DNA of 64,000 bases from Periconia sp. R9002 (Eukaryota > Ascomycota > Dothideomycetes > Pleosporales > Periconiaceae): assembly GCA_023627715.1 (NCBI GenBank), contig JAMAHW010000041.1, forward strand, positions 62,001-126,000. Direction: 5' to 3'. A program made the translations under genes and the position numbers. Below the pieces are notes generated by a model. The model was not told the origin of the DNA and did no database searches. It saw only the letters and a program-made list of their open reading frames with translations. Of this stretch, positions 37,386-40,633 are shown in pieces. Position 1 is the first letter of the stretch. Each line of letters starts with the position of its first letter.

Positions 37386-38438
37386 CTAGATGTCATCCAT
37401 GTTGCCGGCTGCTTCATCTTCATCCCCAGACTCATAGCTACCCACAGAGCTCATCTCGTCGTCATCTTCGTTATCCTTGTCTGAATCTTCGGACGTGTCC
37501 TTGGAGGCATATTTTTGGACATATTCTATGTAGGGTCAGAACCAGTGCTCATCGACAGGCAAGTATGGACTCACCTTTGACTTTGGCGTCGTAGCTCTTG
37601 GGTTCTCGCATCAGTAAAGCCGCCGCTTCTCCGTTGAGAGGGTCGGTTGGGTTAGGGTAGCGAAGGAGTTGAGGGAGGAAGACTTCGAAGATGTTGATCA
37701 TGTCATACATGGGTGACCATGTTTGATTAATAACATCCAAGCAGACAGACCCAGACCTATCCATGTCAGAAACATAGCCCTATTCATGCGAAACTCACGG
37801 CCCTCCCCGTAACAGTAAAGTGAGGCTCAGGGGAGACTCACAACTCATCGATATTAGGGTGAAAAATTCGGTTCACGAAGCCGATGCTGGGGCTCTTGTA
37901 GGGGTACTGATCAGGAAGTTCGACATGGATTTTCCAAAGACCTCCGGCAAAGGGTGCTGGGACGGTCAGCAATGCACGTTGTATCCTGATGATGTGCGTA
38001 GGTGCATACTCTCTTCCGGCCCCTTGAACCTGACGTAAAATTCTTGCCTGTGTTGTATCAGCGATGTTGCGGAGGGTTCGGGGGCGATGCGGCAATCGGC
38101 GGTACGAACACTGTAAGATTGGTTAGATAGACGTGTGTGCAGGTGAAAAGAAGCAGACGTACTGCTATCATTGATGAGGGTGACTTCGTAGTCGCTCATA
38201 AGCCTTTTGTCGTGTCAGTTGCATAGTCTTCCAAGGGGCACAGCTCGGCGAGCAATCACGTACATCCTGTTTATCTGTTAGCAATCCTGCTGCCCACGAA
38301 CCGCTGCAGTGGACCTACTTCATGACCTGTATGCAAAGAAGATCCATACCGTCAGCGCTGCTACTCTACTTCTTGACCATGTATATTGTGTTCAGAAAGA
38401 CCTACATCCGTCTCGATGCGTCGCTTTGGGCTACTCAT
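37386..38438 (-). CDS. UBC8: Ubiquitin-conjugating enzyme E2, UBC8/UBE2H type, nine exons including 8-, 3- and 1-nt micro-exons, 186 aa
   Basis: Exons in coding order: 38438-38406 (33 nt), 38326-38319 (8), 38266-38264 (3), 38203-38163 (41), 38110 (1), 38047-38010 (38), 37956-37842 (115), 37756-37575 (182), 37525-37386 (140); 561 nt total. The product starts [11 protein letters not shown] and has the E2 core with HPNID, catalytic Cys85 in [13 protein letters not shown], and an acidic Ser/Asp/Glu tail ending GNMDDI. Cys85 matches the yeast Ubc8 position. It should accept ubiquitin from E1 and work with the GID/CTLH E3, which in yeast degrades gluconeogenic enzymes. Every intron has GT-AG ends and a plausible branch site. 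The 1-nt exon supplies the T of the Met29 codon; without it the frame shifts. Confidence 0.9.
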
Positions 38439-39571: not shown

Positions 39572-40633
39572 ATGTCGCGTGCCTTCGCACCAACCACCAT
39601 CAACACTTTGCGGTCCACCTCACGCCTCCCACGTTCGTTCCGCACGCCTTTATACTCGCCCTCGTCGCCCTGGAATATTGCCTTCAACACACCATCATGG
39701 CAATGCCAAACCCGCCACTCCTCTCACTCCCCGCTCGGCACCCCTCCGCCCACCTCCCGTAAGCCTACCACAATCACCACCCTCCAATCTCTCTACCGCC
39801 GCAATGAGCCCATCACCATGATGACCGCGCACGACTTCCCCTCCGCCCACGTCGCCGACCACGCCGGCATGGATATGATCCTCGTCGGCGACAGTCTGGC
39901 CATGGTCGCCCTCGGCATGCCCGACACCAACGAAGTCCTGCTCGAAGAAATGCTGCTCCACTGCCGCAGCGTGAGCCGCGCAACCACCAACGCCTTCACC
40001 GTCGGCGACCTGCCCATGGGAACCTACGAGATCGCGCCCGAACAAGCCCTGGAGAGCGCGATCCGCGTCATCAAGGAAGGCCGCGTCAAATCCGTCAAGC
40101 TCGAAGGCGGCAAGGAAATGGCGCCCACCATCTCCAAAATCACCACCGCCGGCATCCCCGTCCTCGCGCACATTGGCCTCACCCCTCAGCGCCAAAACGC
40201 CCTCGGCGGCTTCAGGGTCCAAGGCAAGTCAACGGCCTCGGCCCTCAAGCTCCTCCAAGACGCGCACGCCGTGCAAGACGCAGGCGCCTTCGCCGTAGTC
40301 CTCGAAGCCGTTCCCGCTGAAGTGGCCGCCCTCGTCACAGAGTCCCTCAGCATCCCCACCATCGGCATCGGCGCCGGCAACGGCTGCTCCGGCCAGGTCC
40401 TCGTGCAGATGGACATGCTCGGGAACTTCCCACCGGGGCGCTTCCTACCCAAGTTTGTGAAGCAGTTTGGGAATGTGTGGGAGGAGAGCTTGAGGGCGCT
40501 CAGGAACTACCGCGACGAGGTCAAGACAAGGGCGTATCCGGCTAAGGAGCATACGTATCCGATGGCCATGTCGAGGGAGGAGTTTGAGGAGTTTGAGAGG
40601 CTGGTTAGGGAGGCGAAGGGGAAGAGGGAATAG
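39572..40633 (+). CDS. panB: 3-methyl-2-oxobutanoate hydroxymethyltransferase (ketopantoate hydroxymethyltransferase), 353 aa
   Basis: Single exon. It transfers a hydroxymethyl group from 5,10-methylene-tetrahydrofolate to 2-oxoisovalerate, the first committed step of pantothenate and CoA synthesis (yeast Ecm31). Conserved blocks: MMTAHDFPSAHVADHAGMD, VGDSLAMV with the metal-binding Asp, VKLEGG, HIGLTPQ, and IPTIGIGAGNGCSGQVLV. The first 60 residues are rich in Arg, Ser and Thr with almost no acids (FAPTTINTLRSTSRLPRSFR), a likely mitochondrial presequence as in other fungi. The body is strongly GC-biased at third positions. Confidence 0.96.
   Translation: MSRAFAPTTINTLRSTSRLPRSFRTPLYSPSSPWNIAFNTPSWQCQTRHSSHSPLGTPPPTSRKPTTITTLQSLYRRNEPITMMTAHDFPSAHVADHAGMDMILVGDSLAMVALGMPDTNEVLLEEMLLHCRSVSRATTNAFTVGDLPMGTYEIAPEQALESAIRVIKEGRVKSVKLEGGKEMAPTISKITTAGIPVLAHIGLTPQRQNALGGFRVQGKSTASALKLLQDAHAVQDAGAFAVVLEAVPAEVAALVTESLSIPTIGIGAGNGCSGQVLVQMDMLGNFPPGRFLPKFVKQFGNVWEESLRALRNYRDEVKTRAYPAKEHTYPMAMSREEFEEFERLVREAKGKRE

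Follow-up and report, generated by a model that had tools for sequence, protein, structure and literature searches.

The window, by which I mean the whole 64,000-nucleotide stretch of Periconia DNA analysed here, carries on its minus strand, at 38438-37386, one gene for a ubiquitin-conjugating enzyme (E2) of the UBC8/UBE2H type in nine exons. Joined together, these exons (33, 8, 3, 41, 1, 38, 115, 182 and 140 nt) give a coding sequence of 561 nt, that is 186 amino acids and a stop codon, with the sole cysteine at position 85 in the active-site block SVCLDV; both the length and the cysteine position agree with the original prediction, which was made from the letters alone. Membership of the UBE2H/Ubc8 family is borne out by the E2 profile (Pfam UQ_con, PF00179, E 5e-39), by the active-site cysteine and by the closest solved E2s, the nearest being 8pmq_E (labelled E2-24 kDa; 242.5 bits), which carries NDSMQEF and which I take to be yeast Ubc8, followed by the human UBE2H structures 8pjn_2 (227.6 bits) and 2z5d_A (226.2 bits) and, lower down, by 2onu_A (213.5) and 1yf9_A (190.3), whose labels name no subfamily, and RAD6 1ayz_A (98.8). 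The alignment with 8pmq_E is gapless over residues 1-178, including both micro-exon sites. The closest named protein matches among the best 120 of 4199 presumably belong to the Pleosporales. A search of the assembly (42.9 Mb, 267 contigs) revealed no second UBC8 copy among the best-scoring candidates, and besides three exon matches of the gene itself it returned 15 weaker matches of 28-48% identity. The divergent neighbour of UBC8, at 39572-40633 on the plus strand, is a 353-aa open frame that I take, from its looks, to be a ketopantoate hydroxymethyltransferase. The parts of the UBC8 gene are listed below in the order of transcription; exons 2, 3, 4 and 6 are placed by the only path that leads to the conserved protein, and exon 5 by this path together with sequence shuffles.

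38406..38438, minus strand: exon 1, 33 nt, from the ATG to D11, with a conserved start and the donor GTAGGT
38327..38405, minus strand: intron 1, 79 nt, GTAGGT...CTGAC...CAG
38319..38326, minus strand: exon 2, 8 nt (GTCATGAA), coding V12, M13 and the first two bases of K14
38267..38318, minus strand: intron 2, 52 nt, GTAGGT...CTAAC...CAG
38264..38266, minus strand: exon 3, 3 nt (GAT), the last base of K14 and the first two of M15
38204..38263, minus strand: intron 3, 60 nt, GTACGT...CTGAC...AAG
38163..38203, minus strand: exon 4, 41 nt, from the last base of M15 to the first base of M29
38111..38162, minus strand: intron 4, 52 nt, GTACGT...CTAAC...CAG
38110..38110, minus strand: exon 5, 1 nt (T), the middle base of the M29 codon (A/T/G)
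38048..38109, minus strand: intron 5, 62 nt, GTTCGT...CTGAT...CAG
38010..38047, minus strand: exon 6, 38 nt, from the last base of M29 to the first base of T42
37842..37956, minus strand: exon 7, 115 nt
37575..37756, minus strand: exon 8, 182 nt, containing Cys85
37386..37525, minus strand: exon 9, 140 nt, with the acidic tail and the stop

All eight introns (the last three measure 53, 85 and 49 nt) are of the GT-AG kind and every one holds a CTRAY motif, with the branch A 10-13 nt from the intron end in seven of them and 26 nt from it in intron 1; in introns 2-5 the distance is 11-13 nt, the A itself counted. Base 38110 is a single exonic base bounded by two complete introns, each with its donor, branch motif and AG, and the T at +3 of the intron 5 donor GTTCGT counts against it. 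The original prediction had proposed small exons at 38326-38319, 38266-38264, 38203-38163 and 38110, with intervals of 52, 60, 52 and 62 nt, the donors GTAGGT, GTACGT, GTACGT and GTTCGT, and a branch site in each interval, and these coordinates, lengths, spacings and donors are all confirmed; the branch motifs CTAAC, CTGAC, CTAAC and CTGAT are found in introns 2-5.

Judging from the DNA and its relatives, the UBC8/UBE2H-type E2 gene is very probably intact, with an mRNA that would include both the 3-nt GAT exon and the 1-nt T exon, the M29 codon A/T/G then drawing one base from each of three exons. A dynamic program that traces every GT-AG path between the ATG and the last base of exon 7, with introns of 20 to 400 nt, leaves one path alone that yields the 79 conserved residues at the N-terminus, namely the path with the GAT and T exons, and this uniqueness holds at a minimum intron of 45, 40, 30 or 20 nt and also with GC donors at 30 nt. 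When paths were scored under a fixed exon 1 donor and a fixed intron 6, allowing at most six introns of 45-200 nt each (the first up to 250 nt), 1755 were in frame and free of stops, and the nine-exon form came out best with 424, a score that is identity by construction, because the target is its own translation; the second-best path (413) keeps the 1-nt exon and puts an 11-nt exon in place of the 8- and 3-nt exons, while the best path without an exon under 3 nt reaches 407 and the best without an exon under 8 nt 396. The correctness of the target at M15 and M29 rests on relatives and not on the path score. Leaving out the T shifts the frame so that translation stops after 68 codons, before Cys85, and leaving out GAT keeps the frame at the cost of one Met (M15), the frame shift and the lost Met being as foreseen; the path uniqueness, the gapless 8pmq_E alignment and the public models broken at the same two codons (see below) likewise uphold the earlier proposal that both micro-exons are needed. 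As to chance, 20,000 dinucleotide shuffles of the two gap interiors gave, for the T exon, AG/T/GT at 0.0039, AG/T/GTNNGT at 0.0003 and the latter plus an upstream CTRAY at <0.0001, and for the GAT exon, AG/[GA]AT/GT at 0.0036 and AG/[GA]AT/GTNNGT at <0.0001; if any bases are allowed, an exon of 3 nt flanked by AG and GT turns up often (0.10) and one of 1 nt at 0.017. The complete signal carrying the required bases seldom arises by chance, at <=0.0003 per site.

Assemblies commonly lose a single base, and a one-base sequencing or assembly error might create the apparent need for a 1-nt exon, a reading to which I would give almost no chance given that the gap holds a complete AG/T/GTTCGT and a branch site, and that separate Pezizomycotina genomes have models broken at the same codon. 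The gene itself offers other in-frame joins, which would put S-T for M29, put K for M29-Q30-E31, or lose M15. Also seen at 38264-38274 on the minus strand is an 11-nt exon (ATAAACAGGAT) reached via an upstream AG, which gives an in-frame INRMLMSDY; a similar NRM signature is seen in Plenodomus, Lepidopterella and a number of Claviceps models, and this form is either a minor isoform or an annotation artefact that recurs.

The relatives were compared as protein models, with the intact protein as the query and the best 120 of 4199 proteins retained: 67 named Pezizomycotina genome models, 10 named records from outside this group (six Lipomyces, Dipodascopsis, Saitoella, Pyrus and Quercus) and 43 records without an organism name. 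Records under 170 aa (four nameless, one outside Pezizomycotina) were left out of the junction counts, in which 'not intact' also covers models that have the Met and read on behind it; the form NDNSMQEF is counted as not intact at M29. Among these best 120 of 4199, 10 of the 67 named Pezizomycotina models have an intact M29 junction (57 do not) and 33 an intact M15 junction (34 do not), and the control junctions of introns 1, 6 and 7 are whole in 63, 64 and 65. The junction of intron 8 (intact in 57 of the 67 and in 37 of the 43 nameless records) is an unfair control, because the nameless, mostly transcript-sized records vary there too. Counted by genus-level name within the same best 120, 43 of 53 lack an intact M29 model altogether, nine have only intact ones and Aspergillus has both. 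Outside Pezizomycotina, M29 is present in nine of ten records (Quercus has L) and the residue at 15 in ten of ten, and both positions are kept in 43/43 nameless records, again among the best 120; about 40 of these 43 sit on contigs of <=2.6 kb, and since the contigs are small and the frame is uninterrupted I take them for spliced RNA. Two further searches used the broken models P0098 and P0102 as queries and favour broken models for that reason; over all three queries, at >=170 aa, 14 of 129 Pezizomycotina models keep an intact M29, as do 27 of 28 others and all 61 nameless records, and the figures become 65 of 65 nameless and 29 of 29 outside the group when the records under 170 aa are added with a looser pattern. 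Two labels are in error: 'Geotrichum?' for P0178 is a guess, its name giving no organism, and P0167 was counted with the nameless despite its plant name. The 14 intact Pezizomycotina models reflect either intron loss or good annotation. Both Met are intact in Cladosporium (P0040, P0141, P0142), Peltula (P0049), Psora (P0088), Podospora (P0160) and Chaetomium (P0118), and these models, like others, may be intron losses or good annotations. Comparison with UBC8 of related fungi had been put forward as a check of the original prediction, and in protein models the breaks fall at both micro-exon junctions. A search for the DNA of fungal relatives returned only three prokaryotic E2-like loci from genome contigs and none from viral contigs; one of the three, in an uncultured Micrarchaeota bin (L009, 3001-3393), codes for an E2-like protein with 34% identity over query residues 5-133, and the other two (L010 and L011, Planctomycetota, Phycisphaerales) code for weaker ones.

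The broken models can themselves be decoded, and the splice sites of the other fungi given here were deduced in this way from the 129 Pezizomycotina protein models. Where exon 4 ends in A/GTRNGT at phase 1 and exon 6 is in phase 2, use of the second GT mends the frame and yields S followed by a residue coded by RNG, and the models of the form NDNS-X-[QS]EF have an X codable by RNG in 22 of 22 cases (K, T, M, R, E, G, A). Where intron 4 is spliced correctly and T/GTNNG is then read through, M should be followed by a residue with a T codon (TNN) and one with a G codon, and all 21 NDNM-X-Z models fit, X being Y, F, S or L and Z being V, A or G. Ten of the 129 have the GCAAG/AA acceptor form, and 27 of the 31 models that read into intron 4 have a residue fitting GTRNG, the misfits being Geoglossum and Claviceps africana (D), Thozetella (L) and Verticillium (S); the rest comprise six with R for M29, 25 without a decoding and the 14 intact models. 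The six with R (NDNR[QS]EF: P0005, P0035, P0041, P0061, P0080 and P0108) have a residue that a plain cryptic site does not yield. Evidence of both kinds, A/GT and T/GTNNG, is present in Aspergillus, Penicillium, Fusarium and Aureobasidium, so in these four genera too a solitary T appears to lie between the two introns; a single AT/GTAYGT intron would also yield MYV on read-through, but it is disfavoured because predictors should not fail on such an intron and because A/GT is seen in the same genera.

It might be argued that a cryptic donor 4 nt downstream (AC/GTCTGC) or the acceptor GCAAG/AATTT truly replaces the 1-nt exon, to give an intact E2 with an altered loop (NDSSTQEF or NDSKFYVRF), for both forms are in frame in the UBC8 gene and models of the kind exist in other fungi (NDNSTQEF in Cenococcum, NDNKFYVRF in Penicillium). 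I consider this quite improbable, since M29 is kept in the 43 nameless, mostly transcript-sized records, in 8pmq_E and in nine of the ten records outside Pezizomycotina (among the best 120 of 4199), the residue after S varies (K, T, M, R, E, G, A) as fits intron sequence and not a conserved protein, and the donor GTCTGC looks poor, in my judgement, next to GTACGT. The comparison of single pairs also speaks against it: the nameless record P0031, on a 1.2-kb contig, equals the Penicillium chrysogenum model at all 134 residues that start with HVELPD, and upstream it has NDNMQEFYVRF where that model has NDNKFYVRF. P0018 stands in a like relation to the models of A. niger, A. carbonarius, A. tubingensis and A. 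nanangensis, and P0008 in the same relation to that of Lepidopterella (135 of 135 residues equal), although such downstream identity does not prove one species, because the four Aspergillus species share it. Similarly, the 3-nt exon might always be skipped and the real protein read VMKLMSDYEV without Met15, since this skip is in frame in the UBC8 gene and 47 of the 129 Pezizomycotina models have it, in a set that two of the three queries enriched for such models; yet this too is hardly likely in view of the residue at 15 in 43/43 nameless records and 10/10 outside Pezizomycotina (among the best 120 of 4199), the chance of <0.0001 for AG/GAT/GTACGT, and the nine models that run through GAT into GTAYG (MKMY[VAD]). 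A form unlike the usual GAT skip, VMKMMSDY (or MKMMSDYQ), lacks one residue at the site of the 3-nt exon; it occurs in P0111, P0115, P0119, P0214 (Aureobasidium), P0199 and P0150, and may be a real change or another form of annotation.

Models broken at M29 come from Pezizomycetes (Tuber), Geoglossomycetes, Coniocybomycetes, Arthoniomycetes and Leotiomycetes, and also from what I take to be Dothideo-, Eurotio-, Sordario- and Lecanoromycetes, and those of Lipomyces (Saccharomycotina) and Saitoella (Taphrinomycotina) are not broken. The same two micro-exons thus seem to run through many classes of Pezizomycotina, with gene predictors missing them and mending the frame with cryptic sites, and the breaks at the same spots suggest that they are ancient and widely overlooked; the simplest reading would place their origin before Pezizomycotina split. 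That the 3-nt and 1-nt exons are ancestral to Pezizomycotina and kept with their four flanking introns in most classes, most annotations being wrong, I hold to be probable, a regulated switch being the least likely part of this view. The practical consequence would be that predictors give a wrong protein at M29 in 57 of the 67 named Pezizomycotina records among the best 120 of 4199.

How could a spliceosome handle an exon of one base? Each of the short introns (52-62 nt) would be recognised singly, by intron definition, and the introns would be removed one after another, because two complexes can hardly occupy 1 or 3 nt together. If intron 4 left first, ...AGCAT/GTTCGT would offer a usable donor, and if intron 5 left first, ...TTACAG/TGCAAG would offer a usable acceptor; skipping of the T would produce a truncated E2 and skipping of GAT an E2 without Met15. 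Removal one at a time has been argued for APC11 by Guo and Liu (PMC4674806). Stwintrons, that is nested introns made of adjoining intron units, are known in Ascomycota, and two of them could in principle stand in place of the intron pairs round the micro-exons; they share with UBC8 the adjoining short intron units, which would have to leave in order, and differ in that UBC8 has no split donor and retains 1 or 3 exonic bases between its introns. If each span is excised whole and GAT or T goes with it, M15 or the frame is lost, and I regard stwintrons here as an extremely remote prospect. A [D1,2] stwintron needs a G before the inner GT, and the base is A at both sites; if the donor were split after its second base, a GT would have to precede the inner intron, which is not there. 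The stwintron-like idea floated in the original prediction falls with this, since neither inner intron follows a G or GT that could belong to an outer donor.

The original prediction also called single-nucleotide exons extremely rare, with one report in Arabidopsis, and this is out of date, as spliceosomal 1-nt exons are described in plant APC11 (PMC4674806), in plant VPS55 (PMC8831610) and in Fusarium CYP621A (PMC12940212), the last of which terms its own the first in a fungal gene. APC11 and VPS55 resemble UBC8 in that a 1-nt exon lies between two introns, is kept over a large clade and is absent from annotations, but they are other genes in another kingdom, and the accessible text of these papers describes no neighbouring 3-nt exon such as is predicted for UBC8 (PMC4674806, PMC8831610). 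CYP621A is closer, as a fungal nuclear gene whose 1-nt exon was deduced from a phase clash at a conserved motif; its exon is backed by SRA reads and is a G (in AGGGT) in a P450 of one genus, whereas the UBC8 exon is predicted here from sequence comparison and is a T that, on protein evidence, spans a whole subphylum and is accompanied by the 3-nt exon (PMC12940212). Literature searches that included UBC8 as a term brought up no UBC8 micro-exon by title or abstract among the matches listed, and the listed matches of broader searches held no UBC8 case either. UBC8 is apparently a new case of a deeply conserved single-nucleotide exon, with a 3-nt exon in the same gene, and on protein evidence its 1-nt exon would be more widespread in fungi than the published CYP621A case. 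If true, a 1-nt exon would be a lasting trait of a very large fungal group, among the largest there are, and not of one genus, and a conserved enzyme gene common to laboratory moulds would provide a genetic system for studying how the spliceosome deals with it.

Two further parallels come from different settings. The fungal mitochondrial rnl and placozoan cox1 genes also have one exonic base between two introns, but, as far as the excerpts of these reports go, they are organelle genes, with group II introns at rnl, and not spliceosomal (PMC12308204, PMC5436844). Trichoderma Xlr2 has a microexon, likewise in a filamentous fungus, whose inclusion is described as alternative and glucose-dependent (PMC11121469). 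If inclusion were regulated in UBC8 as well, skipping of the T (truncated E2) or of GAT (E2 without Met15) could switch the enzyme, for example with the carbon source, which is speculation.
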